Source: Acidihalobacter ferrooxydans (GTDB lineage Bacteria > Pseudomonadota > Gammaproteobacteria > DSM-5130 > Acidihalobacteraceae). Taken from it: 64,000 nucleotides of DNA. The notes beneath the pieces were generated by a model. That model did not search any database. It was not told where the DNA came from and worked only from the letters and a program-made list of their open reading frames with translations. Below, one piece after another: positions 8,081-38,117 of this stretch. The first letter of the stretch is position 1. Each line of letters opens with the position of its first letter. Location: NCBI RefSeq assembly GCF_001975725.1, contig NZ_CP019434.1:1079041-1143040 (forward strand), in the 5' to 3' direction. A program made the translations under genes and the position numbers.

Positions 8081-8110
8081 GGCAACAGAAGAACAAGTGA
8101 GGGATTGACT

Positions 8111-8942
8111 ATGGCGTTGGGACGAATGGAGCGCATTCTGATCTTGGCGAAGACATATCCCTCGCCCAGCGCACAGTACGTTGAGACTTCCTGTGTCGCC
8201 GGTATCAGCCAAGACGGTTCGATGCGCCGCCTCTATCCAGTACCGTTCCGGATGATCGAGAAAGGTCAACAGTTCAAGAAGTGGCAGTGGATCGATGTGC
8301 GAGTCGAAAAGGCGAGCAAGGATCACCGGCCAGAGAGTCACAAGCTCTACGTCGACACGATTACTTGTGGGGACGTAATCGACACCAAGAAGGAATGGGC
8401 AGCCCGTTGGGAATGGCTGAATAAGATCCCCACGTTCGACAACTTCGATGCCATCGATGCAGCGCGGCTCAGCGATGGGCTGTCGATTGCTCTGTTGCGT
8501 CCAAGAAGGCTACTCGGCCTCGAAATCATAAAAGCTCGAAACCGGGACTGGACAGACGAGGAAAAAAAAGAAGCTGACACGCGAGCAGATGCAGGGCAAT
8601 CTCTTTTCCGAGACGGAGGCGAAGCGGCAGGTGAAAGAGCTTCGTAAGGTGCCGTTCGATTTCTACTACCGGTACGCGTGCGACACGCCTGAGGACGAGA
8701 AGGAGCACAAGCACAAGATCGTCGATTGGGAGGCAGGTGCGTTGTTCTGGAATTGCCGCCGCGACCACGGCGACAACTGGGAAGGGCCATTCCGCGCCAA
8801 GCTGGAGGGACAGCTGGGCGGCAAAGACTTGATGTTCCTGATGGGCAATCAGCACCGGTTCCAAGACCAGTGGCTGATCATCAGCTTGGTCTATCCGCCT
8901 AAGCGAAAGCCAGTCGAAGTGACGCAGGGCTTGTTGTTCTAG
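8111..8942 (+). CDS. Conserved hypothetical protein, split by a frameshift at an A8 run
   Basis: The first frame starts at ATG 8111 (MALGRMERILILAKTYPSPS) and runs to 8647. The second frame carries the natural continuation from about 8571, LTREQMQGNLFSETEAKRQV, to a stop at 8942. The two join at the homopolymer of eight A residues at 8562-8569, so one base has been gained or lost, or ribosomes slip there. The joined product would be about 277 residues. I know no function; it has the look of a nucleic-acid or nucleotide-handling accessory protein with ALFWNCRRDHG and PPKRKPVEVTQG blocks. It converges on the DUF488 gene with a 44-bp 3' overlap and follows a restriction-helicase fragment, suggesting a degraded defence locus. 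Confidence 0.55.
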
Positions 8943-9381
8943 CGTCCACATCCTTGATGTGTTTGACGTGTGCGCCACAGTAGTCGCGCACCGCATTCGC
9001 CACCATCGAACGGTGGCAAAAATTGAAGTCGGCCTCGTAGCAGAGCAGCGCGCAGTTCGATGAGCTCACCAAGTCGGACAGTTCGGCGATGGCAGCCTCT
9101 TGCGTATTCAGGTGTTTGAGGAAATATTCTGTGTAGCGCTTCCAATTGCCGTCCTTGCGGTAGCGATCACGCACCTGCTTCGGGCAGCCAAGATCGACCA
9201 TGTGGACGTACTCGAGGCCGGAGAGATTGAGTGCGCCGGCCAGCGCCTTTTTAGAGAACCCGGGCTTGCGCGACAGGGGCAGTTCACGGATGTCCACGAC
9301 CGTTTCGATGCCGTGCTCAGCGAGCAACGACATGAACGCGTTAATGTCCAATCCTTCGTAACCTATGGTGAAAACGGTCAT
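8899..9381 (-). CDS. DUF488 family protein
   Basis: A 160-residue protein starting MTVFTIGYEGLDINAFMSLL, with VVDIRELPLSRKPGFSK, a VDLGCP block and CALLCYEADFNFCHRSMVA. GYEG near the start, D-x-R in the next strand and C-Y-E-x-D/x-x-x-CHR near the end are the family hallmarks. The start at 9381 is preferred over the longer frame because the homology begins there. DUF488 proteins are biochemically uncharacterised but often travel with restriction and stress genes. It lies about 110 bp downstream of the CRISPR array on the same strand as the inferred array transcript. Confidence 0.8.
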   Translation of the reverse strand: MTVFTIGYEGLDINAFMSLLAEHGIETVVDIRELPLSRKPGFSKKALAGALNLSGLEYVHMVDLGCPKQVRDRYRKDGNWKRYTEYFLKHLNTQEAAIAELSDLVSSSNCALLCYEADFNFCHRSMVANAVRDYCGAHVKHIKDVDARTTSPASLRLAFA

Positions 9382-9492
9382 ACTTGTGCCCTCTAGAGAC
9401 TGAATCTTACCGGAGGATTTTACCGGAGGATAGGGTGTTCTGACGAGTCTTATTAAACCGGCTGTTATTAACCCGGCAATCAAATATTTCTA

Positions 9493-10023
9493 CCTCTCAT
9501 CCCCGCATACACGGGGGGAACCTGAACAAGAGCCCGCGAAAGCGGCCGCAACAACCTCTCATCCCCGCATACACGGGGGGGAACGCAGTCGAAGGCACCG
9601 CACAGGCTTCTCCGTACCTCTCATCCCCGCCTACACGGGGGGAACGCAGTCGAAGGCACCGCACAGGCTTCTCCGTACCTCTCATCCCCGCCTACACGGG
9701 GGGAACGAATGTGCGTACCGACTCGCATCCTGCGTTTATCCTCTCATCCCCGCATACACGGGGGGAACATCTCGTGGTTGCTGTTCTCATCGAGCGTGTG
9801 CCTCTCCTCTCCTCTCATCCCCGCATACACGGGGGGAACGCTCGGATGCCAGGGAAACGCAAGAAAACAGTCCTCTCATCCCCGCATACACGGGGGGGAA
9901 CGCGTGCAGGGCAGCGATTTGACCATTGGCCTGCCTCTCATCCCCGCATACACGGGGGGAACGTTCTTCGGCGAAGACAAAGAGTCGAAAGCGTCCTCTC
10001 ATCCCCGCCTACACGGGGGGAAC
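9493..10023 (-). CRISPR. CRISPR array, 9 repeats and 8 spacers, type I-E/IV-like repeat, no cas genes in window
   Basis: Repeats start at 9493, 9555, 9617, 9678, 9740, 9811, 9872, 9934 and 9995. Each is 29 nt (30 in the second and seventh, which have one extra G). On the plus strand they begin CCTCTCATCCCCGC, then ATACACGG or CTACACGG, and end GGGGAAC. Read on the minus strand the repeat begins GTTCCCCCCGTG and has the short GC stem of type I-E and type IV repeats, so transcription is inferred to be leftward with the leader on the right. Spacers are 32-33 nt except the fifth (42 nt, ending in two extra CCTCT units). Spacers two (9585-9616) and three (9646-9677) are identical and match virB2 of this element at 27 of 32 positions. 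The third, fourth and ninth repeats share a one-base variant. Confidence 0.95.
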
Positions 10024-10124
10024 CCTTCTTCCAATCCTTTGAAAAAAGAGCAAATTTCAGGGGCGCTTCAAAGTACCAGCTTTTTGGCACACCCTAAGTT
10101 AAGGATTTTCGCACCCAAATGCAA
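10024..10124 (-). promoter_or_regulatory. Putative CRISPR leader
   Basis: This is a 100-bp stretch between the last repeat and the end of the RNase III gene, richer in A/T than its surroundings (for example GAAAAAAGAGCAAATTT at 10041-10057). It sits at the side expected for a leader if the array is transcribed leftward. No leader consensus is known to me for this repeat type, so the call rests on position and composition. Confidence 0.35.
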
Positions 10125-10805
10125 TTATGCAAGCTCGGCATGAGACAGCATCTCGGACGCGGCCGCTAATTCAGCGTCGCGTTTCGTGGCTCCGAATCCC
10201 ACGGTTTTAATCGTGCCGGAGGAACATTCAACGAGAAACCCCGTCGCATTCCCGCCCGATGCAGGAGACAGCAGCGTGCGATAGACGGGGCGTTTCCTGT
10301 GCTGCATCTGCAGGCGTTCCTGCAGCCTTGTTTTCGGATCTTTGGCCTGTTCCGGGTCATCGGGGACGGCCTCCAGCAGCGGCGCGAGCCATGCCAGGAC
10401 AAAGTCTCTCGCCTGACGCTCCCCGCATTCAAGATACACGGCGCCAATGACCGCTTCGACCGCCGATGCGACCACCCGGCTGCTGATCGGAGACTGCTCA
10501 TCGGTCATGGAGCCGCTGACATGGATGTGGTCGATAAGGCCGGTTCGTTGTCCAACTGCATTCAGCGCTTCCCGGTTGACCAGCGTCGAGCGTATTCGGC
10601 TCATGTCCCCTTCGGACCACTCGGGGTGATTCCGGTATAACCAATCGGCCACCGCCAGACCCAGCACGGCGTCACCTAAAAATTCCAGCCGTTCATTGTT
10701 CTTATCCGGGTGGGCAGACCGATGTGTTAACGCCAGGCGCAGGCGTGCCGAATCGCGCACGCTGTCAGGCAGGAGTCGGCTGTAGTGCAGGGTTTCTTTC
10801 GGCAT
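10125..10805 (-). CDS. rnc: Ribonuclease III homologue with a substituted catalytic aspartate
   Basis: A 226-residue protein with the RNase III signature NERLEFLGDAVLG near residue 38, a second catalytic block VVASAVEAVIGAVYLECG, and a C-terminal double-stranded-RNA-binding domain from about 150 (KTRLQERLQ, then CSSGTIKTVGFGATKRDAELAAA). Chromosomal enzymes have A-D-x-x-E-A in the second block; here the metal-binding Asp is Ser (codon TCG) while the Glu remains. Double-stranded RNA binding should persist, but cleavage may be weak or altered (inference). The ATG at 10805 is used, as the longer frame opens with GTG. It lies 100 bp upstream of, and in the same orientation as, the inferred CRISPR transcript, and is divergent from virB11. 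Confidence 0.9.
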   Translation of the reverse strand: MPKETLHYSRLLPDSVRDSARLRLALTHRSAHPDKNNERLEFLGDAVLGLAVADWLYRNHPEWSEGDMSRIRSTLVNREALNAVGQRTGLIDHIHVSGSMTDEQSPISSRVVASAVEAVIGAVYLECGERQARDFVLAWLAPLLEAVPDDPEQAKDPKTRLQERLQMQHRKRPVYRTLLSPASGGNATGFLVECSSGTIKTVGFGATKRDAELAAASEMLSHAELA

Positions 10806-10910
10806 GGACACAGCATGTCGGCTGCATCCCTCATGCGGTTGACCAAATAAACGGCGAGGGCGGCGTTATTCACGCGAAAAATAGGATTCGGGCCGGCGCA
10901 TGCTCATTGC

Positions 10911-11906
10911 ATGAGCGATTCAACACACATTCAGCCTTTAGCCGGAACGTTATCGGAAGCATTGAGCATTAAGCCCGATGAGCCCTTGCAGGTCAGGGAG
11001 GCCAAGCGGGTACTCATGGGACTGCTGTCGCCCCTGCATGAGCTGTTCGCCAACGATGTCACCGAGATCATGATCAACCGGCATGACGACATCTGGATTG
11101 AAGACCGAAGCGGGATGCGCCGGGTCGAACAGGCACTGACGCGCGCTGCGGTGGAAACCGCGATTGTCGCCCTGGGGCGTCTGTCCGGGCTCGATGCCGA
11201 CGCGAACGCGCCGATTGTTGATGCCAGAATCGGCCAGCACCTGCGTATCGGTGCCGTGCTGGAACCGGCCGCAGTGGAAGGCCCGACGCTGTGCATTCGT
11301 CGGCACGTACCCATCGAGGCAAGTCTTGATCTGTATGGAGAAGCGCCGGCGCGCTTGTCCCGAAAACTGCTGCAAGACGGCGTCAATATTCTGGTCGCCG
11401 GTCCAACCGGGTCAGGCAAGACCACCTATCTGAACGCATTGCTCGCCGGTGTCCCGGAGTCCGAACGCATTGTCGTGATTGAGGATACCCCTGAGCTGCA
11501 TATCAAAAACCCGAACCGGGTCCGCTTCGAAACACGCGGGGCCGCTGACATGAGTGCCTTGCTGAGGGAGACGCTGCGGCAACGCCCCGACCGAATCGTG
11601 CTCGGTGAGCTGCGAGGCAAAGAGGCCTACCACCTGTTGCAAGCCTTCTCGACCGGCCACGGGGGGTCGTTCTCGACCATCCACGCAGGTAACCCGCAGG
11701 CTGCCTTGTTGCGTCTGGCGTCGTTGATCGGTCAAGCCGAAGAGGCGCGTTCCTGGCCGCAGTCGGCCATCCGCGCGGCCATTGCCGCCACGCTCGGGGC
11801 CGTGGTTTGTCTGCGGCGCAAGCAGGTGACCGATATTGCCCTGATCAGCGGCCAGAACGAGCAGGGCGACTTCGTGTTGGAGCCGGTTTTTGAAAAAGCC
11901 GGCTAA
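10911..11906 (+). CDS. virB11: VirB11/TrbB-family secretion ATPase
   Basis: A 331-residue traffic ATPase of the conjugative T4SS, a cytoplasmic hexamer at the base of the channel. Walker A is AGPTGSGKTT near residue 162, then VVIEDTPEL (Asp box), a Walker B segment RPDRIVLGELRG, and the His box FSTGHGGSFSTIHAG. The N-terminal half (VTEIMINRHDDIWIED) is the usual membrane-proximal domain. It is the first gene of the virB cluster, divergent from the RNase III gene with about 105 bp between them. Placing virB11 first rather than last resembles Trb-type (IncP) operons. Confidence 0.93.
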   Translation: MSDSTHIQPLAGTLSEALSIKPDEPLQVREAKRVLMGLLSPLHELFANDVTEIMINRHDDIWIEDRSGMRRVEQALTRAAVETAIVALGRLSGLDADANAPIVDARIGQHLRIGAVLEPAAVEGPTLCIRRHVPIEASLDLYGEAPARLSRKLLQDGVNILVAGPTGSGKTTYLNALLAGVPESERIVVIEDTPELHIKNPNRVRFETRGAADMSALLRETLRQRPDRIVLGELRGKEAYHLLQAFSTGHGGSFSTIHAGNPQAALLRLASLIGQAEEARSWPQSAIRAAIAATLGAVVCLRRKQVTDIALISGQNEQGDFVLEPVFEKAG

Positions 11907-11980
11907 AGCGGGGTTATTCGATGCCCTGCGCACGAACGGCATGCCCATACTCAAACTGACAAGTCAATTTAGAGGTCGCT

Positions 11981-12385
11981 ATGAAACTGAGCACAGCGTA
12001 TTACACGGCAGGGGCCTGGGTGATGTCCCGACCATGGGTTGTCGGTGTTGCCTTACTGGCAGTCGAAGGCACCGCACATGCTTCCTTGTTCGGGAGCAGT
12101 GGTTCAAGCTGCGGTTCGTCGACCGTTTCCGTGTTCGGAAACTTTACCGGTCTGGTCGGTTCGATTGCCGCATTTTTGAACGGTGGCTTTGGTCGCGCCG
12201 CGGTGTTGATCGCCATCATGATTATGGGATTGTTCATGATGTTCGGTGAACTCAAGGGCGTGCTCGGTACCGGTCTCAAAATCCTGATGGGCGGTTCGCT
12301 CGTACTCATGGCAACCCAATGGGCCGGAATATTTTCTGGATTTGGTGGTACGTCGGGCGCCTGTCAGTACATTCAGGGGTCGTAA
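11981..12385 (+). CDS. virB2: VirB2/TrbC-type conjugative pilin
   Basis: A 134-residue protein with a long signal peptide ending near EGTAHAS, followed by a small soluble segment and two hydrophobic helices (AAVLIAIMIMGLFMMFGEL and LMGGSLVLMATQWAGIF), as in VirB2/TrbC pilins that build the conjugative pilus. It sits 75 bp after virB11 and just before virB3. Bases 12059-12090, coding for the signal-peptide end, match the duplicated CRISPR spacer at 27 of 32 positions. The Cys pair (SSCGSS and GACQY) could form a disulphide in the mature pilin; that is inference. Confidence 0.85.
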   Translation: MKLSTAYYTAGAWVMSRPWVVGVALLAVEGTAHASLFGSSGSSCGSSTVSVFGNFTGLVGSIAAFLNGGFGRAAVLIAIMIMGLFMMFGELKGVLGTGLKILMGGSLVLMATQWAGIFSGFGGTSGACQYIQGS

Positions 12386-12386
12386 T

Positions 12387-12680
12387 ATGGCCGCACGCAA
12401 AACCCCGTTTCGCCGGGCGATGATCGGCGGGCGCACGTTGTGGGGCGTGGATTACCCGCTGGCCGTTGCCAACATGATGTTCGCCGCGGCGTTTGTGGCG
12501 GTCGGGCATTTGTGGTGGTGGATCGCCGTCGCGGTGATGATCCATGGCCTGCTGCGCATGGCATACCGCGCGGACCCGGATATGTTCAAGGTCTACATCA
12601 AGTACGTCAAACAAGGCCATCAGTACGAACCCGCTTGGCACCCGGACAGTAAAAATCCACCGCCCGGAGGCTGGGCGTGA
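12387..12680 (+). CDS. virB3: VirB3/TrbD-like inner-membrane T4SS protein
   Basis: A 97-residue protein starting with basic residues (MAARKTPFRRAMIGGRTLWG) and carrying two adjacent hydrophobic helices (VANMMFAAAFVAVGHL and WWWIAVAVMIHGLLRM) before a C-terminal tail with MFKVYIKYVKQG. Size, topology and position between the pilin and VirB4 fit VirB3, a partner of VirB4 in the inner membrane. It begins 2 bp after the virB2 stop and its TGA overlaps the GTG start of virB4. Confidence 0.85.
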   Translation: MAARKTPFRRAMIGGRTLWGVDYPLAVANMMFAAAFVAVGHLWWWIAVAVMIHGLLRMAYRADPDMFKVYIKYVKQGHQYEPAWHPDSKNPPPGGWA

Positions 12681-15148
12681 TCTCTCTGGCCGAGCGCAAA
12701 CAGGCGTTGACCGCGAGCCGGTCGTTGTCTGAGCTGCTTCCCTGGGCGGTATTGCTAACCCCCGGGGTCGTGTTGTGCAAGGACGGTTCATTGCTGGCCG
12801 GGTTTGCCTATCGGGGCATGGATACCGAAGGGCGCGGCGAGGACGCCAAGGCCGCCGACGCGAAAATGCTAGAGCGCGCCGTAAACAGCTTCGGTTCACG
12901 GCGCATCATGATGTGGTGGACGGTGCGGCGGGACAGGATTGGCGGGTGGTCAGGCGGGCAATTCTCCGACCCCATAGCCGCCCGTATCGATCAGGCTGCA
13001 CGCCGGGCATGGGATAGTCAAACCCATTACATCAATCATCGGATGGTGTGGATTCTCGTTGCACCGCCCACCCCCGCCGAAACGCTGGTGTCGCGCATTA
13101 TGCAGCACGGCGCAAGCGGTGTTCCCGGTGCGTTATTGCCCTGGCTTCGGGCGACCTTTACCGGCAGCGCCTCGTTTGAAAACGATGCCAGGCATTTGCT
13201 CGCGCGGGTCAATGAGGCCGAGACGCTCTTTGAGCGAATTCCGACACTGTTTCCAGACGCCGGGTTCAGCCGTCTGTTTGACCGACGCCTGCTAGGCTGG
13301 CTCAATGCACTGGCCTCACCCGCGAACCCTTACCACCCGGTTCATGTACGCGCCGGTATCGAATCGCTGGATACGGTTCTCGGCGAAAACGCCTTGGATC
13401 AGTCCGCCACGGCCATGCGCATGAGTGGCGGCGCCGGTGAGCGCTACGTGGGGGTTTTGAGCATCAAGAACCTCCCGGAGTCCTGGCCGGAAGAAACCTG
13501 GCCGGGCATTCTCGATGGCGTGATCGATGCGGCCGATGCCGAATGCGTGTTTTCCCTGGGTGTGCGTTTTCTCGACCCGCAGGAGGCGCGCGCATTCGTT
13601 AAGCAACGCCGCCAGCACATGCTCAACTGGCGCAAAGGCATGTCGGGCTACATCAAGGAAAGCCTGATGAACGTGCAGACCGATGCCGTTGACAGCGAAA
13701 TGGATGTGTACGCCCAACAGGCGGGGCAGGCGCTTGAGGATCTGGCGCGAACGTCGGTGGCCGGTCATGTCAACCCGACCTTTTATGTGCGTGCGGCGAC
13801 CCCGCAGGCGATGGAGCGCGCGCTCGCGGATGCTTCAAGGGCACTGCATGTGGCGGGGTTCCAAACGCTGCGTGAACGCATTCATCAGATATCCGCCTGG
13901 GCCGGAACCCTGCCGGGACAATGGGCGCTGCCGGTTCGGTGGGTCTATGCATCCGGGGCATCCATCGCCGATTTTGCGCCGATACGCGGTGCATCGTCAG
14001 GGTCCACAAGCAATCGACACCTGAGCAAAATGCTGGGTTCCAAACAGCCGCCGTTGGCGACATTCCCTACGCTCGGACGCGAGCCCTACTGGCTGGAACA
14101 TCACCTCCGAGATGTTGGCAACGGGGTCATTATCGGACCCATCGGTACGGGTAAGTCCGTGCTCGGCGGGTGGATGGCTTTGCGCTTTACGCAATATCCA
14201 AAGTCGCGGGTCATTATCTTTGACAAGGACCGCAGTCTGTACAAGCTGGTGCTCGGCTGCAGCGGTCAGTATCTGGGTGAGACGGGCACAATCAAAATCA
14301 ATCCATTCCAGGGCCTTGCCAGCGATGAGGACTGGAGCTGGGTCAAGGGGTTTGTCGCCGACCTGCTGCGACCCGAGAACGGCGTGCTGGAACAAGCCGA
14401 TATCAATGCCGTCAACACGGCGTGCCAGCGCCTGCGCTCGCTAGACCCGACGGATCAGCGGCTGCGCTCGTTGACCGCGTTATTGCCCGCTCGCCTTTCC
14501 GAGAAATTATCCCCCTGGATTGGCGACGGCCGGTACGCGGGCTACTTCGATTATGCCGACGATGCCATGAACCTGAGCGCACTGACCGGCATCGCGATGG
14601 ACGAAGTGTTGCGCCACCGTCAGGCGGCCCGTGCGTTCATGGATTTGGCATTTTTCCGTATTTCGCGCCTGCTCGATGGCTCTCCGGTGTACATCCATAT
14701 TGAAGAGGCGTGGTTTCTCATTGGGGGGCCCCAGTTCGAAGCCAAGCTCGACGACTGGCTGCGCACGCTGCGCAAACTCAACGGCACGGTCGTGCTGTCG
14801 ACACAGGCCGTCAGCGAGCTGGCCGCTTCAAAATCGTTTCCCGTGATTGCCTCGATTCCAAACCGGTTCCTTTTACCTAACCCGGATATCCGCACGCAGG
14901 CGGAAGGGTACAAGGCCGCGCTGGGCCTGAACGATGAGCAGATAGACATCGTGGCCGGCGCAAAACCCAAGGGCGAGGTCGTGCTGGTTCGGGAAGGGAC
15001 CACCCGCGTGCTGGACGTGCGCATTCCACCCGAAGGTCTGGCTCTGTTACGGGCCGATGCCGAAGCCAATGATGTGTTTGCACGCTGGCGCAACAGCGGC
15101 GCTGATGATTGGAGGATTCGCTATGTTGAAGAGCTATCAAAAGGGTAA
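12677..15148 (+). CDS. virB4: VirB4/TrbE-family T4SS ATPase
   Basis: An 823-residue ATPase, the usual VirB4 length, powering pilus biogenesis and substrate transfer. The N-terminal CagE/TrbE domain (residues about 1-430) is followed by the motor: Walker A IIGPIGTGKSVLGGW near residue 484, the segment VIIFDKDRSLYKLV, Walker B YIHIEEAWFLIGG near 673, and a Q-rich sensor region VVLSTQAVSEL. The start is GTG at 12677 within the virB3 stop (GTGA overlap), indicating coupled translation. Its last 26 bp overlap virB5. Confidence 0.95.
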   Translation: MISLAERKQALTASRSLSELLPWAVLLTPGVVLCKDGSLLAGFAYRGMDTEGRGEDAKAADAKMLERAVNSFGSRRIMMWWTVRRDRIGGWSGGQFSDPIAARIDQAARRAWDSQTHYINHRMVWILVAPPTPAETLVSRIMQHGASGVPGALLPWLRATFTGSASFENDARHLLARVNEAETLFERIPTLFPDAGFSRLFDRRLLGWLNALASPANPYHPVHVRAGIESLDTVLGENALDQSATAMRMSGGAGERYVGVLSIKNLPESWPEETWPGILDGVIDAADAECVFSLGVRFLDPQEARAFVKQRRQHMLNWRKGMSGYIKESLMNVQTDAVDSEMDVYAQQAGQALEDLARTSVAGHVNPTFYVRAATPQAMERALADASRALHVAGFQTLRERIHQISAWAGTLPGQWALPVRWVYASGASIADFAPIRGASSGSTSNRHLSKMLGSKQPPLATFPTLGREPYWLEHHLRDVGNGVIIGPIGTGKSVLGGWMALRFTQYPKSRVIIFDKDRSLYKLVLGCSGQYLGETGTIKINPFQGLASDEDWSWVKGFVADLLRPENGVLEQADINAVNTACQRLRSLDPTDQRLRSLTALLPARLSEKLSPWIGDGRYAGYFDYADDAMNLSALTGIAMDEVLRHRQAARAFMDLAFFRISRLLDGSPVYIHIEEAWFLIGGPQFEAKLDDWLRTLRKLNGTVVLSTQAVSELAASKSFPVIASIPNRFLLPNPDIRTQAEGYKAALGLNDEQIDIVAGAKPKGEVVLVREGTTRVLDVRIPPEGLALLRADAEANDVFARWRNSGADDWRIRYVEELSKG

Positions 15149-15959
15149 AGCCGGACCGGCGCTGTTGTCATTGGCGATCCTGGCGGGCATCCCGTCTGCT
15201 GCGCATGCGATGGCGAGTGGCAGCATCGTGTTTGACCCGTCGAATTTCGCTGAAAACTCTATCAGTGCGGCAAAAATGATCAAACAGATTGAGGCTGATG
15301 TGGAGCAATATGCGCTTCAAAAGTACGGCATCGATGTCAATCTCAATAATCTCAGCCAATCGGCCCTTAACAGCCTGATGCAGCAGTATCCGCCGCAGAG
15401 TCAGTATCAGATGGATTACCTGACGAATCTGGCTAGGTTGGAAAAATCGCTGGGCGTCGCGCAGCAGTCGGTGACGCAACAGTATCAGGCCTACAGCGCA
15501 TCGGGGTTGACGCCGTCGCAGTATGTGGCTCAGGAGCAGCAAATCGCCGCATCGAACCAGGCACACTCGGCCGCGCAGTACAGCCAGGCGGTCAATGCGC
15601 TGCATCGGGTCAACGCCTTGGCGGCCACGGTCAAAAAGCAGGGCAAGAGCATTGGTACGCTCAAAGGCGCGAGCAAACAACGTAATCTGTTGAACATGCA
15701 ACTGCATACGCTCATCCAGCAAAATCAGATGCTGCTCAAGCTCGTGGCAACCTCTGCGGCGAACAAGGGCGGGACGGGCACCCAAAAAGCGGCGGCGCAA
15801 AAAAAGGAATCGGCGTACCTGAAAAGCCTGCGTGCGTTTCTCGCCAAGCAGCCGACCGTGCAGAGCCAAATGACCAGCGCGGGAAACACGCTGGCTGGAC
15901 TCAAGCCCAAGTGGCCGCCGGCTAACCCCTCGTCCACGAATCCTGCGGGTACGCCGTAA
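15123..15959 (+). CDS. virB5: VirB5/TrbJ-like periplasmic pilus-tip protein
   Basis: A 278-residue secreted protein. The ATG at 15123 gives a clear signal peptide (LLSLAILAGIPSAAHA) and overlaps the end of virB4. The mature part is largely Gln/Ala-rich and helical, with ENSISAAKMIKQIEADVEQY near the start, the pattern of TrbJ/VirB5 proteins, and a long coiled-coil-like region at 120-230. VirB5 proteins decorate the pilus tip and act in mate contact. Its stop overlaps the virB6 start as TAATG. Confidence 0.82.
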   Translation: MLKSYQKGKAGPALLSLAILAGIPSAAHAMASGSIVFDPSNFAENSISAAKMIKQIEADVEQYALQKYGIDVNLNNLSQSALNSLMQQYPPQSQYQMDYLTNLARLEKSLGVAQQSVTQQYQAYSASGLTPSQYVAQEQQIAASNQAHSAAQYSQAVNALHRVNALAATVKKQGKSIGTLKGASKQRNLLNMQLHTLIQQNQMLLKLVATSAANKGGTGTQKAAAQKKESAYLKSLRAFLAKQPTVQSQMTSAGNTLAGLKPKWPPANPSSTNPAGTP

Positions 15960-17029
15960 TGCGCCGGATTCTTGCCACGCTGGGTATCGGGCTGATGGGC
16001 CTCGTCGCGTCGTTCCCGGCCTGGGCGGGTGGCAGCCCGGTCAACAATTACACGCCGGCCGGGATTGTCAGCGGACTGGGGACATTTCTTGGGAATTACG
16101 AGTCGAGCTTCAACCAGGCCGGCATAGCTATGGCCGGTCTGGCCGTGCCCTATGGGTTTGTGATGCTCAAGGCGTTTCTGGTCATTGCCATTATGATCTA
16201 TGGCATCCAGATGATGTTTGATGTGGGGGGGCGAACTTTAGAGCCTTCCAGTTTCTTTATGACGATGTTCTGGTGGGCCACGGTCTTCACGATATTCACG
16301 AATTACAACTGGATTGCTACGCATGTGATCGGGATCATGACCGAGCTGGGGCAGGGGCTCATCGGCGGCGGCCCCTTCCCGAATGCGGCAGGCTTGCAAA
16401 CGATGGCACTGGGATTTCATATCTTCACGTCAGCGGCGGGCGTTATTTCAAGCACGCATGGGCACTGGACCTGGAATCTGGTGCATGACCTGGCGGAACT
16501 TGGCTCTCTGTACGGGTCGAGCTTCAACTTCTTTGTCTCGCTGATCCCATTAACCGTTGTGGCCGGTTTAATTATGGCGGCCGGGTTGGTTTATACGATA
16601 TTCACGTTCAAGTTCGCGTTCTATCTGGCGCTTGCGCTGGGCCTTGGCCCGCTCTTCTTGCCCACGCTGATGTTCAAGTGGACCCGGGAAAGCTTCTTTG
16701 ACGGGTGGTATCAATTCACATGGACGGCGTTGATGTACAAGCTGGCCGGCCCGGCGGTGCTCTCATTGGCGGCCAGCTTTTTCATTCAGCCGCTCAATAC
16801 CGTGACGCAAAACAATTCGGTGTATTCCATCAGCGCATCAACAGGCTGGGTGGTTGTGAACTGGGGGCACGTTTTCACCTCCCTGGTGCTGAGCGTACTG
16901 GCACTATGGTTCATGATCGGAATCGACCGGATTATTTCCACGTTAGCCGCGGGCGCCGCGATGCCAGACGGGTTGGGCGGTTATGCGCAAAAGCTTGCGG
17001 TTAAATCGATGACCGGCGGGATGGGATGA
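15959..17029 (+). CDS. virB6: VirB6/TrbL-family polytopic membrane protein
   Basis: A 356-residue protein with a signal-like N-terminus (LMGLVASFPAWAGG) and about six hydrophobic helices: near residues 55-90, 100-120, 195-240, 250-275 and 300-325. The segment FAFYLALALGLGPLFLPTLMF followed by W-x-x-x-W is characteristic of VirB6/TrbL, the inner-membrane channel component. It follows virB5 with a TAATG overlap. A strong terminator-like hairpin lies 30 bp after its stop, before virB8, which is unusual within a virB operon. Confidence 0.88.
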   Translation: MRRILATLGIGLMGLVASFPAWAGGSPVNNYTPAGIVSGLGTFLGNYESSFNQAGIAMAGLAVPYGFVMLKAFLVIAIMIYGIQMMFDVGGRTLEPSSFFMTMFWWATVFTIFTNYNWIATHVIGIMTELGQGLIGGGPFPNAAGLQTMALGFHIFTSAAGVISSTHGHWTWNLVHDLAELGSLYGSSFNFFVSLIPLTVVAGLIMAAGLVYTIFTFKFAFYLALALGLGPLFLPTLMFKWTRESFFDGWYQFTWTALMYKLAGPAVLSLAASFFIQPLNTVTQNNSVYSISASTGWVVVNWGHVFTSLVLSVLALWFMIGIDRIISTLAAGAAMPDGLGGYAQKLAVKSMTGGMG

Positions 17030-17058
17030 CCGTTCGAAAAATCGGTCTACGGATACCT

Positions 17059-17099
17059 GCGCCTCGATGTTTCTCATGGACATCGAGGCGCGCTTTTTT
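17059..17099 (+). terminator. Rho-independent terminator between virB6 and virB8
   Basis: A perfect 12-bp stem, GCGCCTCGATGT at 17059-17070 and ACATCGAGGCGC at 17080-17091, closes a 9-nt loop and is followed two bases later by TTTTTT. It should end or attenuate transcription from the virB11-B6 half before virB8. Confidence 0.85.
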
Positions 17100-17128
17100 G
17101 GGCTTTTGACCGGCTACAGCAAAGCGTT

Positions 17129-17160
17129 AAAAAAGACCCAAAAACGCGGTTTTTCGAAAA
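17129..17160. promoter_or_regulatory. Shared A-rich palindromic motif upstream of virB8
   Basis: The core AAAAAC-GCG-GTTTTT (17140-17154) is flanked by AAAAAAGACCC on the left and CGAAAA on the right. It lies between the terminator and virB8, 35 bp from the start codon, where a new promoter is needed. Near-identical motifs occur upstream of the parM-like gene (62106-62137) and the FlhD-like gene (49274-49305). Confidence 0.6.
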
Positions 17161-17194
17161 CCTATCACCCAAGCGCCTGCCGCATCATTTCGGC

Positions 17195-17827
17195 ATGGCT
17201 AAATCCACGATTGAACCGATGGCCTGGAAAGGCTTCTTTGAGCGATTCGCTCAACCGCTGTTGCAGCGCGACCGCTTCTTTATCGCGATGATGGGCGCGC
17301 TGGCGGTCGCGCTTGTCGAGGCCGGGGCGCTGGTGGCTCTCATTCCGCTGCACAAGGTTGAGCCGTATGTGATCAAGGTCAATACCAACGGGGCCATTGT
17401 GTCATCCGGTGTCGCGCAGTCATCGGTTCGGCCCAGCACCGCGCAGATCACCTATTGGGTCGGGCAGTTCGCCAAAAACCTGTACACCATCGAGCCCGGC
17501 CAGACACGTGCAAACGTCGCTCAGGCGTATTACCTGACGCAGGGTGCGGCCGTGGGACAGTTCTCCCGCTTCATGGAAAAACATAACCCCGTGCGGTTGC
17601 TCCAAGCCAATCCTGCATTGCGGGTGACGGTCAAGATTCAGGGGGTTTCTGAGATTGCCCGGAATACGGTTTATGTCACCGGCCAGGTCGTCAACCACTT
17701 GACCGGTCGTCGCGCCGCGCTGGGCATGACGGTGAGTTATGCGCTGGCCCCGCCCAAGACGGTCAGCGCAGCGATGAACAATCCACTGGGCATTCATATC
17801 ACCAACTTCGTCATTCAGGAAGGCTGA
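17195..17827 (+). CDS. virB8: VirB8/TrbF-family T4SS assembly protein
   Basis: A 210-residue bitopic inner-membrane protein with one transmembrane helix near residues 30-52 (FIAMMGALAVALVEAGALVALIPL) and a periplasmic NTF2-like domain. KVEPYVIKVN just after the helix, and YTIEPGQTRANVAQAYYLTQG further on, are typical of VirB8/TrbF. VirB8 nucleates core-complex assembly and contacts VirB9 and VirB10. It opens the second transcriptional block behind the hairpin and the shared motif and precedes virB9 with one base between them. Confidence 0.9.
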   Translation: MAKSTIEPMAWKGFFERFAQPLLQRDRFFIAMMGALAVALVEAGALVALIPLHKVEPYVIKVNTNGAIVSSGVAQSSVRPSTAQITYWVGQFAKNLYTIEPGQTRANVAQAYYLTQGAAVGQFSRFMEKHNPVRLLQANPALRVTVKIQGVSEIARNTVYVTGQVVNHLTGRRAALGMTVSYALAPPKTVSAAMNNPLGIHITNFVIQEG

Positions 17828-17828
17828 C

Positions 17829-18674
17829 ATGCGTATTACGAAAACAGGACTACTACTGGCGCTCATGGGGGCCGGCATCGGCGTTGCGCATGCCGCCGCG
17901 ACCGCTTACCCGTCGGCACTTTCAGCGCGTCTCGTGCGGTTTGTCTACGACCCCAATCAGACGTACACGATCTATACGCGGCCCGGCATGGTGACCGACA
18001 TCCGGATTCCAGAGGGTAGTCAGCTGGTCGGTCTGGTGCTGGGTAATACGGTGCAGTGGATCACCAGTGGCCTGGGCAATTCAAACAATGTGTTTATCAA
18101 GCCAGTCGCGCCGGGCCTTGAAACGTCCGCTACGCTGGTGACGACAAAGCGCACGTATCAATTGATGATGGTCTCGCGCGCAAAAGGCCCGTGGTATCAG
18201 CAGGTCAAATTCAATCCGTCAAGCTCCATTGCACTGTACAACCCGCAGGCGGCGATGTCTGTGGCGTCGACGCCTGCAAAGCACACGCCAAAGAAGCCTG
18301 CGCCGTCCACGAAAAATGCTTTTTCGAATATCCCGTTAAGTCAGATGAATTTTGACTGGCATGTTCAGGGCCAGGCGAAATTCGCACCCAGCAAAGTCTT
18401 TTCGACGAGCAACTTTGTGTGGATGGATATACCGTCCAATGCGCCGGCGCCGGTCGTCTTCAGCCGAGACACTGCGAATGCGCCCTGGCATATCGTGAAT
18501 TACAACACGAAGGGTTCGTGGATCGTGGTTCAGGGCACACCGGCGCAGATTCGCTTGCTGGCGAACGGGCATCAGGTTGTCGTGTCACAAGGCGCACAGG
18601 CCTCCAACACCTCGAATGCCGGGCAAAACAACAACGATGTTTTTAATCCGTTCGGTAACCGGAGCCACCACTGA
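17829..18674 (+). CDS. virB9: VirB9/TrbG-family T4SS outer-membrane core protein
   Basis: A 281-residue periplasmic protein with a signal peptide ending near VAHAAATA. The N-terminal domain (RLVRFVYDPNQTYTIYTRPG, IRIPEGSQLVGLVLG, VFIKPVAPGLETSATLVTTKRTYQL) is the VirB9/TrbG beta fold; the linker carries KHTPKKPAPST; the C-terminal domain (FDWHVQGQAKFAPSKVF, FVWMDIPSNAPAPVVF) binds VirB10 and VirB7. Its stop overlaps the start of virB10. No separate virB7 lipoprotein is evident; the lipoprotein at 19888 could fill that place. Confidence 0.92.
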   Translation: MRITKTGLLLALMGAGIGVAHAAATAYPSALSARLVRFVYDPNQTYTIYTRPGMVTDIRIPEGSQLVGLVLGNTVQWITSGLGNSNNVFIKPVAPGLETSATLVTTKRTYQLMMVSRAKGPWYQQVKFNPSSSIALYNPQAAMSVASTPAKHTPKKPAPSTKNAFSNIPLSQMNFDWHVQGQAKFAPSKVFSTSNFVWMDIPSNAPAPVVFSRDTANAPWHIVNYNTKGSWIVVQGTPAQIRLLANGHQVVVSQGAQASNTSNAGQNNNDVFNPFGNRSHH

Positions 18675-19891
18675 TGTTGCGCCCAAAAAATCGGCGTCAA
18701 GAACCGCCGCAGCCACAGGACGATGATTTTCGCACAGGTGGTGGCTTGCCGACGCGAACCCTTCCCATACTGTTGGCCGGGTTCGCAATCGTCGTGGCAC
18801 TGATTATCGCGCTGACCGGCCCGCGCAGCACACCCGCGCCAACTCCTGTCAAGCGGGTGCAGGCACCGCCGCAGGTTCAGCAAAAACCTTCGCAGTCAGA
18901 ATTGCAGCGATTGCTCGGCAGTCTGTCCGGCAAACAGGCTTCATCTCAAGACAGCAAAACAGCCGTGCCCAATCCGGTTCAGTCGCTGGTGCCTACGCCG
19001 TCCGCACTTGAACGGCACAAGGCGAACAAAGGCAATGTCGCGGCAAGCGGATTGGTGGCGCTCACCGGGCCTGGCGCATCGTCTCCGGCGCCGACGGTTA
19101 CGTCAGCTTCAAGCACCACCCCTGGAAACGCGCTACCCAGCGCGGCGGCGCTGGCGAAATCGTTGTCAGGCAATAACACGTCAGGGCTTTCCGCGCTGGC
19201 GGCGCTGGCGGCGCAAAAAAAGGCTTCTGCCGCAGACAATGCACAGCATTTTTTGTCCAGCACGCAGGCCCAGGCTGGAAGCGGTTACGGGCCTGTCGCG
19301 CATGTGCTCCCGAAACTCAAGGGTGCCGTGCTATACCCCGGCGTGATGTTGCCGGCCACCACGATCACGGCGGTCAATACACAACTGCCTGGTACGGTGA
19401 TTGCGCAAGTCACTAACACCGTGTACGGCCGCAACGGGCGCGTCGCAATACCGGCTGGCGCGCGGCTGGTGGGGCGGTACGACACCTCGATTACGAATGG
19501 GCAGACACGCATCCTGGTTGCCTTTCAGCGCCTGATTTTCCCGGACGGCAGAGAAATCGTCCTGGGCAATTCACAGGCTACAGGCGGGCAAGGCGCGGCC
19601 GGCGTCAAGGGCAGCGTCAACAACCATTTCTTCACGATGCTCGGCTCAAGTTTGCTGGTTGCCTTGATCGATCAGGGCGTTGCAAGCATTGGCCCCAGCC
19701 AGTCGGTGACTTCGGTGACCGGGACATCTGCCAGTTCGCCGGTTCAAGCCGGCGCACAGGTGTTCGCCAACGGGGTGAACAACGTGTTGTCACCCTATGA
19801 AAACATGCGTCCAACCGCCGTCATTCCGGCAGGGACTCCCATCAACATTCTGGTCAATAAAACCATCGTCATGCCGGAGGCACATTCATGA
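18674..19891 (+). CDS. virB10: VirB10/TrbI-family T4SS core-complex protein
   Basis: A 405-residue protein spanning both membranes. A single N-terminal helix (LPILLAGFAIVVALIIALTG, residues 34-53) is followed by a Pro/Gln/Ser-rich linker to about residue 210 and then the conserved TrbI domain: GVMLPATTITAVNTQLPG, VTNTVYGRNGRVAIPAGARL and FPDGREIVLGNSQATG. The antenna-type segment with LLVALIDQGV follows. The C-terminus ends in PAGTPINILVNKTIVMP, a VirB10 hallmark. It overlaps the next gene (19888) by 4 bp, tying the T4SS genes to the pilus genes. Confidence 0.93.
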   Translation: MLRPKNRRQEPPQPQDDDFRTGGGLPTRTLPILLAGFAIVVALIIALTGPRSTPAPTPVKRVQAPPQVQQKPSQSELQRLLGSLSGKQASSQDSKTAVPNPVQSLVPTPSALERHKANKGNVAASGLVALTGPGASSPAPTVTSASSTTPGNALPSAAALAKSLSGNNTSGLSALAALAAQKKASAADNAQHFLSSTQAQAGSGYGPVAHVLPKLKGAVLYPGVMLPATTITAVNTQLPGTVIAQVTNTVYGRNGRVAIPAGARLVGRYDTSITNGQTRILVAFQRLIFPDGREIVLGNSQATGGQGAAGVKGSVNNHFFTMLGSSLLVALIDQGVASIGPSQSVTSVTGTSASSPVQAGAQVFANGVNNVLSPYENMRPTAVIPAGTPINILVNKTIVMPEAHS

Positions 19892-20967
19892 ACCTGGCTC
19901 CAAAAATCCTGATGTCTGCGTGCGCGGCAGCTACGCTGGCCGGTTGCGCCACCGCCCGGCCGCCCGTCATGCAGCCGAGTCCCATTAGCGGATACACCAT
20001 CGGCTATCGCATCCTCAATCCAGCCAAAGGAACATCGGTTGCGGCCAGTGTTGTCAGCGGCGAAAACAAGACCTGGATATCGCTGCCCAAGGGCGTGACC
20101 CTGCTTCAGGCCAATGCCGACGGGCGCCCAGTCACGGTTCAGCGACAAGGTCCGTACTGGGTCGCGCCGACCGTGGCGACGCTCTGGAAGCTCTACACCA
20201 ACGCCGGGCCGGTCGAGGCCATGGCGCCGGCATCGGTGGGCGTCATTCTCGCCGCTGAAAAACAGCACAAGGCCGAACAGCCGCATTATGTATGGCAGAC
20301 GCGCACAGACCATGTGGCGTTCACTCAAGGCGCGGCGCTAACCCACGCAGGCCAGCAAACGCTCCGTCATTTGGCCGGCGTGCTGAATCAAGCCCACAAG
20401 GTTGATTGGGTGCGGGTCAGCGGTCAAACCACGCCGTCTGGAACGGTGGCCGAAAACGCCCGTATCGGTGCGCAGCGCGCGGCCGTGGTCAGCGACTGGC
20501 TCAAGGCGCACGGTGTTTCAGCGGTGGAGGATAGGGGCTGGGTGCGCGGCGGCGACCGCAAGGCGGCCTTGATCGTCGCACGCTATCAAACGCAGATGAA
20601 GCCGCCCGTCAAGGTGGCCGCCAAACCGATGCCCCCGGTGAAGGTGGCAACAAAGGTTGCGCCACCGGTCAAGGCAATCGCGAAACCGTCGGTTACCCAT
20701 GCGGTCACGTTGTCTCAGAAAGCGTCGCACTCACTGGTGTTTACCACGCATCCGGGCGATTTGCTCTCGCAGGACATGGGCGCATTTCTCAAGGCACACG
20801 GCTGGTCGTTGGTCTGGCGTGATCACTACGACTACGCCCTGCAATATGCCGCTCAGTTCAAGGCGCAGACCCTGACGGATCTGCTGCAAAAAGTCGTGCA
20901 GCGCTATGGAATTCGCATCGTTTTGTACAAGCAAAATCATGTTGCCGTCGTGGAGGCCGGTCGATGA
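19888..20967 (+). CDS. PilL-like lipoprotein with OmpA-like and TcpQ-like regions
   Basis: A 359-residue lipoprotein: the signal peptide ends at a lipobox LAGCATA. Residues 35-120 resemble the beta fold of VirB9-type N-termini. Residues about 140-230 resemble an OmpA-like peptidoglycan-binding domain (VAFTQGAALTHAGQQTL, ARIGAQRAAVVSDWL). A repetitive Lys/Pro/Val spacer (KPMPPVKVATKVAPPVK) leads to a C-terminal domain from about 290 (FLKAHGWSLVWRDHYDY, TLTDLLQKVVQRYGIRIVLY) like TcpQ and the end of R64 PilL, which help secretin assembly. It joins virB10 and the secretin gene with 4-bp overlaps at both ends. Confidence 0.75.
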   Translation: MNLAPKILMSACAAATLAGCATARPPVMQPSPISGYTIGYRILNPAKGTSVAASVVSGENKTWISLPKGVTLLQANADGRPVTVQRQGPYWVAPTVATLWKLYTNAGPVEAMAPASVGVILAAEKQHKAEQPHYVWQTRTDHVAFTQGAALTHAGQQTLRHLAGVLNQAHKVDWVRVSGQTTPSGTVAENARIGAQRAAVVSDWLKAHGVSAVEDRGWVRGGDRKAALIVARYQTQMKPPVKVAAKPMPPVKVATKVAPPVKAIAKPSVTHAVTLSQKASHSLVFTTHPGDLLSQDMGAFLKAHGWSLVWRDHYDYALQYAAQFKAQTLTDLLQKVVQRYGIRIVLYKQNHVAVVEAGR

Positions 20968-22532
20968 ATAGGACACGAAAGACACTCGTAATGACTGCCG
21001 TGGGTCTGGCGCTGGGTGGCTGCGCGCAAACGCCTGCTTTGCATGCGCTGACGACACAGCAGTCTGCGTTGCAACAACAGGCGCAGCAATCGGCGCAATC
21101 GCCGTCTCTGGTGGCTACGCGCAATCAGGCCTATGTCGCGCCGACCAAGGTCGACTATCAGGCCCCGCAGGATACGGTGAGCCTGCAGGCCAGCGGGCTT
21201 CCGTTGGCGCAAGCCTTACGTCAAGCGATTCCGGCCGGATGGTCGCTGTCGTTTGAAGGTGGCACTGATCCTAACCAGGGGGTATCGGTCAGCCTCAATG
21301 GCGTATCGCGCAACAGTGCAATTCGTCAAACGGCCATGGCCGGCGGCGATGTCGCGGTCATTGAGTCAACCCGGCGTTCGGTGATTATTGCCAAGCGGGC
21401 GACCTATACCTACCGGGTTCCGATGGGTCTGTTGAACGGGCAGTCCGCAAACCTGAGCGTGTCTTCATCGTCCACCCTCAGTGGCGGCTCGTCGGGCGGC
21501 AGTTCTTCCGGCGGTTCTTCCATGGGCGGCGCCCCAGGCGGTAGCAGCGGGGGCAGCAGTGGCGGCGGCAACGGTTCCTCGTTCAGCGTCACCGGGGGCA
21601 CGGCTTCGTCCGGCTTTGTCAGTACGGTGAAGTCTCTGGCCGGGGAAAACGGCGTCGTCAGCATTGACCCCTCGACGGGGCTGGTCTCGGTGACTGCCGG
21701 TGCCGGAGGCCTGATGCGCACGCAGCGCTATATCGATGCATACACGAAAGCGGCTAACACAAAGGTCGAAATTCACGCGGCAATCCTTCAGGTGCAGCTC
21801 AACCGCGGCATCAGCACGGGGATCAAGTGGAATCGTCTGTTCAATGCGGCCGGCTCGCTCAGTGCTTCGCTGTCCGCCGCGCAACCGGCCTTGGGACAGG
21901 TCGTATCCGGTGCATCAACCACGGCGTTTTCCATCACCAAGACGGGTACCGACCTCAATGGCATCATTCAGGCGCTGCAAAAGGTCACAACTGTCAGGGT
22001 GGTCACCAAGCCCTGGCTGGTTGCCACCAACGGAACGCCTGCGACCATCAATTCGGGCACTCAGGTGCCCTATGTGGGCAGCATTACAAACAGCGTCAGC
22101 GGCCTGTCGGGGACTTCGTCGACCGGCAGTTCCTTGAGCTACGCCAACAATGGTGTGGCGCTGAGCTTTATCCCGCAAGTGCTTGGGCATGGCTGGGTTC
22201 AGATGGCGGTCATGCCATCGCTGTCGACCATCGAGCGGTTTGACACCTTCAACGTCAGCGGCCAGACACTGACCGGGCCGGTGCTCCAGCAGCGCCAGGC
22301 ATTTGTGCGGTTGCTCATGAAGTCGGGACAGACCGTCATCATGGGCGGGTCAATCTCGAACTCGGCCATCCAGCAGACCGGCGGAATCCCCGGCTTGTCG
22401 CGTATTCCGGTGCTCGGCGGTCTGTTTGGTAACTACGGACAAGGTCACGACCGCACCCAACTGGTCATTCTGGTGCGCGCCAAGGTCATTCCGGCGCCGG
22501 CGATCAACCCACTGGTTGGCGAGACACTGTGA
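20964..22532 (+). CDS. pilN: PilN-family type IVb pilus secretin
   Basis: A 522-residue outer-membrane lipoprotein (lipobox LGGCAQ). An N-terminal domain with TVSLQASGLPLAQALRQAIP and a second N-domain are interrupted by a striking Gly/Ser-rich run at residues about 170-215. The secretin domain follows: VEIHAAILQVQLNRGISTGI, LQKVTTVRVVTKPWLVATNG, INSGTQVPYVGSI, and the family signature IPVLGGLFGNYGQGHDRTQLVILVRAKVI. Secretins form the gated pore for the pilus. R64 PilN is the closest named relative. The gene overlaps its upstream neighbour by 4 bp and abuts the next as TGATG. Confidence 0.9.
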   Translation: MNRTRKTLVMTAVGLALGGCAQTPALHALTTQQSALQQQAQQSAQSPSLVATRNQAYVAPTKVDYQAPQDTVSLQASGLPLAQALRQAIPAGWSLSFEGGTDPNQGVSVSLNGVSRNSAIRQTAMAGGDVAVIESTRRSVIIAKRATYTYRVPMGLLNGQSANLSVSSSSTLSGGSSGGSSSGGSSMGGAPGGSSGGSSGGGNGSSFSVTGGTASSGFVSTVKSLAGENGVVSIDPSTGLVSVTAGAGGLMRTQRYIDAYTKAANTKVEIHAAILQVQLNRGISTGIKWNRLFNAAGSLSASLSAAQPALGQVVSGASTTAFSITKTGTDLNGIIQALQKVTTVRVVTKPWLVATNGTPATINSGTQVPYVGSITNSVSGLSGTSSTGSSLSYANNGVALSFIPQVLGHGWVQMAVMPSLSTIERFDTFNVSGQTLTGPVLQQRQAFVRLLMKSGQTVIMGGSISNSAIQQTGGIPGLSRIPVLGGLFGNYGQGHDRTQLVILVRAKVIPAPAINPLVGETL

Positions 22533-23617
22533 TGCGGCGGCCCGAATTGAACCTCAACCTCAAGCGCAAGCGCAAGCGCGATGGTCGCCCTGTGCTGGCG
22601 GCGCAGATCGCGGATACCTGGCGGTTCTGGGCGCTTGACGGCGATCAATGGGCTTCGGTGGATGCACCGCTCGCCGGCGATACGCTCTGGCGTGTGGCCG
22701 AATACGATGCGCTTGCACTGCATGAGGGCCGGCGCAAGGCGGGACTGAACCGGATAGGACTTGAGATGATCAAGTCCAAACCCGCCATCATGCGCCTGGG
22801 CCAATGGGCGGCGTTTGCGCCGGCAGACAGTGTGACGCTGCACGGGCATGCGGTTCAACCCATTGCGCTGACGCTGATGCGGCGTTTGCCCGAGATGACT
22901 GCTCCGGCCTTGTTGCGGCTCAAGCTGCCGGACGGGTACACGGCATTCGCTTTATATATGCGCGACAAGAGCGTCAGGGGCTGGGTGCTCAGCGGCGCCG
23001 AAGACGTGTCGGTCACCGAGCAACAGATCCTCCAGAAAGCCGGGCTGACCGACGCACCGGGAATCGACCTGCCGGATGTCGCGACGTTAATCGCGCAGGC
23101 GACCGGTGTCCGGCCCTTTCCGACCGAACCCGAATGGGGCGGTTTGCCGGTTTCGGTGTATCGCAAAGCCTATGTCGCGGTCACCGCGGTAGTGCTTGCG
23201 ATGGCGGCCCTGTACTGGATTAAGGGACAGGCCGCGCAAACAGCCGCTCACGCGCACGCAACGGCTGTCGACGCACAGCATGCCGTGGCGCTGCGCACGC
23301 TGGAAAAGTGGGATTTGCATCATGCACTGGCCTTGGCGAAGCGTTCCAGCCTTGATCCGACCGCCTTGTTTGCCGCAGCTCGCGCGGTCTACCTGCCGGG
23401 GAGCCAGGTCTCACTCACACAGGGCGGGAAAGAATTGGTCGTGGAATTGGCGCAGGTCTCGCTAGCCCCGATTGGAAACGGCCGATGGACGCCGCGTTCG
23501 GCCATCGAGGCCGGCATGGCGCATCCGGCGCCGCAAGGCTGGCGTCTGACCAAGCTGGTGCGCAACGGGCAGGGCGGGTATGCGCTGGTCTACAAGCAAC
23601 AAGGGGGCCGCCCATGA
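22532..23617 (+). CDS. PilO-like type IVb pilus inner-membrane protein
   Basis: A 361-residue bitopic protein. The cytoplasmic N-terminal domain (WRFWALDGDQWASVD, GLEMIKSKPAIMRLGQWAAF) is followed by a single helix near residues 211-227 (AYVAVTAVVLAMAALYW), then a coiled coil rich in Ala/His and a periplasmic end (GWRLTKLVRNGQGGYALVYK). Position directly after the secretin and this topology match R64 PilO. It likely forms the alignment subcomplex between the ATPase platform and the secretin. Family assignment rests on synteny more than on motifs. Confidence 0.6.
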   Translation: MRRPELNLNLKRKRKRDGRPVLAAQIADTWRFWALDGDQWASVDAPLAGDTLWRVAEYDALALHEGRRKAGLNRIGLEMIKSKPAIMRLGQWAAFAPADSVTLHGHAVQPIALTLMRRLPEMTAPALLRLKLPDGYTAFALYMRDKSVRGWVLSGAEDVSVTEQQILQKAGLTDAPGIDLPDVATLIAQATGVRPFPTEPEWGGLPVSVYRKAYVAVTAVVLAMAALYWIKGQAAQTAAHAHATAVDAQHAVALRTLEKWDLHHALALAKRSSLDPTALFAAARAVYLPGSQVSLTQGGKELVVELAQVSLAPIGNGRWTPRSAIEAGMAHPAPQGWRLTKLVRNGQGGYALVYKQQGGRP

Positions 23618-24114
23618 AGTCGCTACCGCGTCAAACAGCCTGGGTGGTCGGCACCGTGTTGCTTGTGCTGGCCGCTGTTTTGTACCACATGGGTTCCAGC
23701 GCCACCGATGCCGCGCAACAACGCGCAGCGCAGGCGGACACCGTTCGATTGAAGTCAACCATTAATCCGCGCCTGGCGACTGAGCGGAAAGTGCAGACCG
23801 CCAGCCTGCAAACCGCGCTGGTGCTGTCTGCCCTGAAAAAAACCGCCGCCATCACCCGAGTGAGCGAGACGCAGATTTCCATCTCGGGGATGTTTCAAAA
23901 CGCATCGAATCAGCAAGACCTTGAAGCGGCGGCTAAAAGCGCCCCAGGCATGCCGGGTCTGAAGGTCGTCAGCGTGCGTATCTCCGGCAGTTGGCAGACC
24001 CTTCCCGGACTGCGGGCGTGGCTGGCAACGCTCGACACTCGACCTGTGCGGATCACCTCGCTGGATGTGTCTCAGGGATCGTTCATCATGGGGTTCAATA
24101 TCTATGGCCGATGA
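23614..24114 (+). CDS. Bitopic pilus-assembly protein
   Basis: A 166-residue protein with one N-terminal helix (TAWVVGTVLLVLAAVLYHMG) and a small periplasmic domain (AITRVSETQISISGMFQNAS, SVRISGSWQTLPGLRAWLATL, ITSLDVSQGSFIMGFNIYGR). The domain with its repeated beta pattern and a D-x-x-x-x-x-x-M-x-F-x-I-Y-G end resembles PilO/GspM-type ferredoxin-like domains. It overlaps the PilO-like gene by 4 bp and the ATPase gene by 11 bp. I infer a partner of the PilO-like protein; no exact R64 homologue is recognised. Confidence 0.5.
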   Translation: MKSLPRQTAWVVGTVLLVLAAVLYHMGSSATDAAQQRAAQADTVRLKSTINPRLATERKVQTASLQTALVLSALKKTAAITRVSETQISISGMFQNASNQQDLEAAAKSAPGMPGLKVVSVRISGSWQTLPGLRAWLATLDTRPVRITSLDVSQGSFIMGFNIYGR

Positions 24115-37621: not shown

Positions 37622-37639
37622 GGTTGGCGGGAGTAGTTC
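37480..37639 (+). ncRNA. Probable omega/reRNA at the tnpB 3' end (copy 1)
   Basis: In IS200/IS605 elements the guide scaffold RNA overlaps the 3' end of tnpB and ends at the right element boundary. Here that interval carries GC-rich self-complementary stretches (for example ACCATCGGAGACGATGG, 37568-37584). Boundaries are inferred; the guide would be read from flanking DNA beginning at 37640. Confidence 0.4.
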
Positions 37640-38049: not shown

Positions 38050-38117
38050 TGTGGGGTCTCCGTGTTGTGAGGTCTTTTGATTGTATCGGATTGCGGGAGA
38101 ATGCAAGGCTTGCCAGA

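Follow-up and report, generated by a model that had tools for sequence, protein, structure and literature searches.

A type IV-A-like CRISPR system on an integrative conjugative element of Acidihalobacter ferrooxydans, with a duplicated spacer that probably derives from the virB2 pilin gene of a related element

The window analysed here, a stretch of 64,000 nucleotides at positions 1079041-1143040 of the single-contig, 3.45 Mb genome, lies wholly within an integrative conjugative element (ICE) that carries three CRISPR arrays and a type IV-A-like cas operon. In the reading we favour, to which we assign a probability of about three in four, the most likely donor of a spacer duplicated in one of these arrays is the virB2 gene, coding for the pilin, of another, related conjugative element, and the resident ICE would thereby stop a close competitor by way of the competitor's pilus gene. 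The crRNAs would be transcribed leftward from the leader, probably processed by the Cas6 of the element and then bound by the Csf effector; by analogy with characterised type IV-A systems, this effector and the DinG helicase would together repress or eliminate the plasmids and elements that match. The resident virB2 should be spared by its mismatches at crRNA positions 1, 4 and 5 (and 6 and 12); the expression, the interference, the source element and the self-escape are all four things that we infer. Competition between elements by means of a type IV-A-like system is a known sort of conflict (PMC7434947, PMC11656645, PMC8175902), of which this ICE is a new example. A guide, the effector genes and a near-match of the target all reside here on one and the same element and are thus jointly testable, and the case bears on how a conjugative element can aim immunity at the pilus gene of a close relative without hitting its own.

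The array and its leader are as follows (window coordinates here and below, unless marked as genome positions).

9493-10023, minus strand (crRNA sense): CRISPR array 1, 9 repeats and 8 spacers (7 different), repeat GTTCCCCCCGTGTATGCGGGGATGAGAGG
9585-9616, minus strand: spacer 2 of array 1, the same 32-mer as spacer 3
9646-9677, minus strand: spacer 3 of array 1, from a 61-bp tandem duplication
10024-10090, minus strand: leader-like flank, common to array 2 and to the arrays of sister elements in genomes G002 and G004

Array 1 has the make-up of a CRISPR array, with regular, near-identical repeats of 29-30 nt at a spacing of 61-71 bp, different spacers and a leader in common with other arrays. 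Spacers 2 and 3 (GCAGTCGAAGGCACCGCACAGGCTTCTCCGTA) are identical, as had been noticed in a sequence-only reading of the window, and belong to exact tandem copies of spacer plus repeat (9576-9636 and 9637-9697) that take in the right-hand variant of the repeat, so that spacer 3 is most simply a duplication within the array rather than a second acquisition. Another spacer of the array (9769-9810) is unusually long, at 42 nt, and seems to contain an extra copy of the repeat end. To the left of the array, at 8105-9483, PADLOC places the candidate defence families PDC-M19B and PDC-M19A in genes that are apparently fragmented.

To the right of the leader lies the conjugation operon, with the pilin gene that the duplicated spacer resembles.

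10125-10811, minus strand: ribonuclease III gene, adjoining the leader; also near the conjugation operon in the sister elements of G002 and G004
10911-11906, plus strand: virB11/trbB-like ATPase
11981-12385, plus strand: virB2/trbC pilin gene of the resident element (Pfam TrbC/VirB2 PF04956, E 5.9e-9, above the cut-off)
12059-12090, plus strand: near-match to spacers 2 and 3 of array 1, 27/32; 5' flank CCG in the crRNA sense
12677-15148, plus strand: virB4/trbE-like ATPase
15959-25828, plus strand: continuation of the conjugation operon, with VirB6, VirB8, VirB9 (CagX), VirB10 (TrbI), TcpQ/OmpA-like, secretin and T2SSE ATPase genes

The virB2 gene, flanked by the VirB11-like and VirB4-like genes, is the sole copy found in the genome. 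Alignment reproduces the match described by the sequence-only reading, in which the first 20 bases are identical and, in the frame of the pilin gene, the spacer encodes AVEGTAQASP(Y) where the resident has AVEGTAHASL(F); four of the five substitutions alter amino acids. The match is real: at 27/32 or better on both strands, a single spacer is expected to find about 8e-7 sites by chance in the 147-kb element, and the 18 different spacers taken together 3.5e-4 in the whole genome, and the next-best site for the duplicated spacer in the surrounding 160 kb reaches only 20/32. That the similarity is fortuitous, the spacer having come from a phage or some other unrelated source, would fit the lack of any exact protospacer among plasmids (blastn and tblastn), phages and viral contigs. 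It is nevertheless extremely unlikely in view of these expectations, of the in-frame position of the match in a mobile-element gene and of a second spacer that matches the same element at 29/33, and phage records match none of the element's spacers.

The source gene itself was looked for more widely. Genome contigs searched with the peptide and a wobble-degenerate pattern yielded no source (the pattern matches, at 24/32 or fewer, look like chance), nor did the genus at up to three mismatches or a set of 369 relatives, and the VirB2 loci of the sister elements do not contain the spacer (19/32 at best). Thus the exact or near-exact hit in a virB2 or trbC gene of plasmids or integrative elements that the sequence-only reading had named as its check was not found, and neither were exact protospacers confined to phage, which would have spoken against it. 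Its proposal that the protospacer came from a homologous pilin gene of a related element is supported by the in-frame match, but the exact gene was not recovered.

The direction in which array 1 is read determines where the mismatches fall. The right ends of arrays 1 and 2 have 55 bp in common, and this leader flank also stands next to two arrays of G002 and one of G004; array 3, which adjoins the cas genes, is without it. Read leftward, the repeat forms a hairpin followed by an 8-nt tail, AUGAGAGG, as expected for Cas6 handles, but the opposite strand likewise folds, so the leader is the stronger argument for orientation. Leftward transcription of array 1, which is supported by these sequence features, places the start of the crRNA at the end where the resident virB2 differs, in line with the earlier suggestion that the mismatches would occupy the seed if the array were read in this direction. 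In the IV-A1 system of P. oleovorans, a mismatch at position 1 or 4 lowers interference, most other single mismatches being tolerated (PMC11519345), and escape of the resident virB2 from its own spacer is therefore to be expected. The same data bear on the idea that the spacer deliberately silences the resident virB2 and so regulates the element's own conjugation in spite of the mismatches. A near-match in the resident gene is what this would call for, and the P. oleovorans type IV-A system does repress a host gene (PMC11656645), but mismatches at positions 1, 4 and 5, the first two of them sensitive singly in IV-A1 (PMC11519345), make it highly improbable.

The main rival is that the element sampled its own virB2, or the direct ancestor of that gene, and that changes at the seed end of the resident copy followed. 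Such self-acquisition with escape would account for the identity of the 20 distal bases and the confinement of all five mismatches to the first 12 crRNA positions (chance 0.004), for the predominance of substitutions that alter amino acids, and for the near-match of a second spacer, spacer 7 of array 2, to the same element. However, the stretch spans the probable end of the pilin's signal peptide, which is poorly conserved among the sister VirB2 proteins, so that the clustering of mismatches does not require self-acquisition and follows just as well from a diverged relative. In the second near-self match, moreover, the mismatches are scattered and two of the changes are synonymous, as expected of a diverged homologue. 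We consider self-acquisition unlikely and retain a related element's virB2 as the preferred source.

The second near-self match lies in another gene of the element.

37606-38106, minus strand: lipoprotein-like gene (so called from reading its N-terminus), holding the homologue of the target of array-2 spacer 7
37814-37846, minus strand: near-match to array-2 spacer 7 (spacer at genome 1151350-1151382), 29/33

Here the two peptides compare as DWMYNAMFLY against DWMYNAMFRY, and the mismatches are distributed over the whole spacer. Other guides point to further mobile-element genes, although a target was identified for only a minority of the element's spacers. Spacer 2 of array 2 agrees at 32/33 with the repC gene of IncQ plasmids, a match seen in about 700 plasmid records, and spacer 2 of array 3 matches at 28/32 a gene that neighbours a DnaB helicase in G002 and G003, with three synonymous differences and one amino-acid change. 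Spacer 8 of array 1 has a 27/32 match in G288. Spacers 5 and 9 of array 2, seen by eye to overlap by three bases, read in one frame as RHYWMCLGAEDTCGRFYPDD, and a zinc-ribbon protein of G002 and G003 has R(F/H)YWLCLNGEDECGAIYSDD at the corresponding place; in this peptide comparison spacer 5 by itself reaches a score of 51, where shuffled sequences reach at most 47, spacer 9 by itself remaining within the shuffled range, and tblastn with the 20-residue peptide joined from the two spacers found no plasmid. Array 2 also holds a spacer of unusual length, 24 nt, at genome 1151412-1151435. Guides against replication and transfer genes, with none against known phages, support a type IV-A role in competition between mobile elements.

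The 5' flanks of the six matches of at least 27/32 are CCG, ACG, TCG, ACG, GCG and AGC, so that CG occupies positions -2/-1 in five and GC in the sixth, with a probability of about 1e-4 before allowing for the choice of motif. An AAG-type 5' PAM is absent from these flanks; AAG has been reported for a subset of type IV-A and is not defining for all such systems (PMC8175902).

The effector genes lie on the same element, about 107 kb from array 1.

Genome 1196126-1201931, minus strand: type IV-A-like cas operon, in reading order Csf3/Cas5, a 324-aa ORF, Csf2/Cas7, DinG and Cas6

PADLOC recognises DinG (Csf4_0_IVA, E 2e-71), Csf2 (typeIV_Cas7, E 1.3e-38; the classifying gene of type IV), Csf3 (typeIV_Cas5, E 4.2e-27) and Cas6 (E 1.1e-11), while the NCBIfam scores for Csf2 (TIGR03115, E 5.5e-10), Csf3 (TIGR03116) and Csf4 fall under the curated cut-offs. 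Csf2 and Csf3 are the marks of type IV, and DinG within the operon, Cas6/Csf5 and a neighbouring array those of IV-A; it is the occurrence of DinG together with Cas6 and an array that places the operon, on sequence grounds, as IV-A-like. Functionally, IV-A systems are marked by interference that is guided by crRNA, depends on DinG and proceeds without cleavage. Csf1 of IV-A is a small, Cas8-like subunit with a zinc finger; the 324-aa ORF in its slot, which on reading has just two cysteines, finds no match in PADLOC, NCBIfam, Pfam or the PDB sequences; csf1 is absent from some type IV systems (PMC8175902). The type IV-like, inter-element role proposed in the sequence-only reading thus gains from the cas operon with its same-repeat array, which lies beyond the window and had not been seen in that reading, from the mobile-element spacer matches and from the lack of phage matches. 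The sole Cas1 found in the genome belongs to a separate chromosomal locus (genome 3260000-3279999) with a different, 36-nt repeat, ATTTTCCCCGGCAAAATGCCGGGGCCTCATTGAAGC, which is unlikely to serve the element's arrays; integration of the spacers was therefore probably the work of some adaptation module not evident here.

The boundaries of the element show that a single insertion holds all three arrays together with the cas and conjugation genes. An 11-bp core, CCACAGGCTGG, stands at genome 1059144 and again at 1205991, delimiting 146,847 bp, and joining the flanks at the core restores a complete ORF like those of G002 and G003, which from knowledge of the family we take to be a DUF2062 gene. 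The insertion site was located by reading the flanks, where the ORFs were assigned to chromosomal lolCD on the left and to comEC, exbB and msbA on the right; in G002, G003 and G004, lolD adjoins comEC (tblastn of both genes). With an integrase-like ORF at its right end (genome 1204889-1205899, by reading; a relative in G002 is 54% identical), flanking direct repeats, a conjugation operon and an empty site in relatives, the insertion combines four features that mark an ICE. Arrays with the same repeat occupy genome 1088533-1089063, 1150955-1151526 and 1195893-1196043, the third immediately downstream of the cas operon and the other two far from it. The element also carries a type II methyltransferase and a BsuBI/PstI-type restriction endonuclease (39700-42191), and near-identical copies of an IS605 OrfB/TnpB-like gene at 36326-37621 and at genome 1129332-1131170, 1170719-1172014 and 1180136-1181431. 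A dispersed intergenic repeat of about 165 bp occurs at genome 1206157-1206328 and in about 40 other places, its copies being 81-87% identical and their ends matching each other in inverted orientation.

Like the plasmid type IV-A systems (Pseudomonas IV-A1, and IV-A3 on IncHI1B/IncFIB plasmids), the present system, borne by a mobile element, combines homologues of Csf2, Csf3, Cas6 and DinG with an array; its operon is without adaptation genes, and its spacers are directed against plasmid and transfer genes, which in the plasmid systems include traN and traL (PMC7434947). Unlike them, it resides on an ICE, and what is unusual in this ICE is the dispersal of three arrays, two of them far from the cas genes, the lack of the shared leader at the cas-side array, the CG rather than AAG flanks, the unrecognised protein in the Csf1 slot, the sub-threshold NCBIfam scores and the presence of two near-self spacers. 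A type IV locus on a large ICE is likewise reported for A. ferrooxidans by two citing papers (PMC11656645, PMC10322971), the second of which lists the element at a tRNA gene, whereas the present one is inserted in the DUF2062 gene. The P. oleovorans IV-A1 spacer against host pilN also has a pilus-related target affecting DNA transfer or uptake (PMC11656645), but that target belongs to the host's type IV pilus and is matched in full within the same cell, whereas here it is a conjugation pilin whose resident copy is mismatched in the seed.

The sister elements of G002 and G004 have syntenic conjugation operons (VirB4 60% and VirB2 52% identical) and an RNase III gene; about 3 kb from virB2 they hold an array that shares both repeat and leader. 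Neither genome has a Csf2 like the resident's, and their arrays may therefore be orphans or depend on another system. The other 368 relatives searched yielded no Csf2 homologue (E<=1e-5), leaving a single genome with this cas operon among those covered. It is conceivable, if rather doubtful, that the sister ICEs maintain a common family of leader-bearing arrays beside their conjugation operons, the cas-less members keeping guide libraries usable only with a cas-bearing relative, and that residents' genes, virB2 among them, acquire mismatches in the seed that let them withstand guides held in common. Sister arrays resemble the resident ones in what they match: spacers of G002 have 29/32 matches to a transposase gene of the G004 region and to a locus of G002 itself, just past the zinc-ribbon gene.
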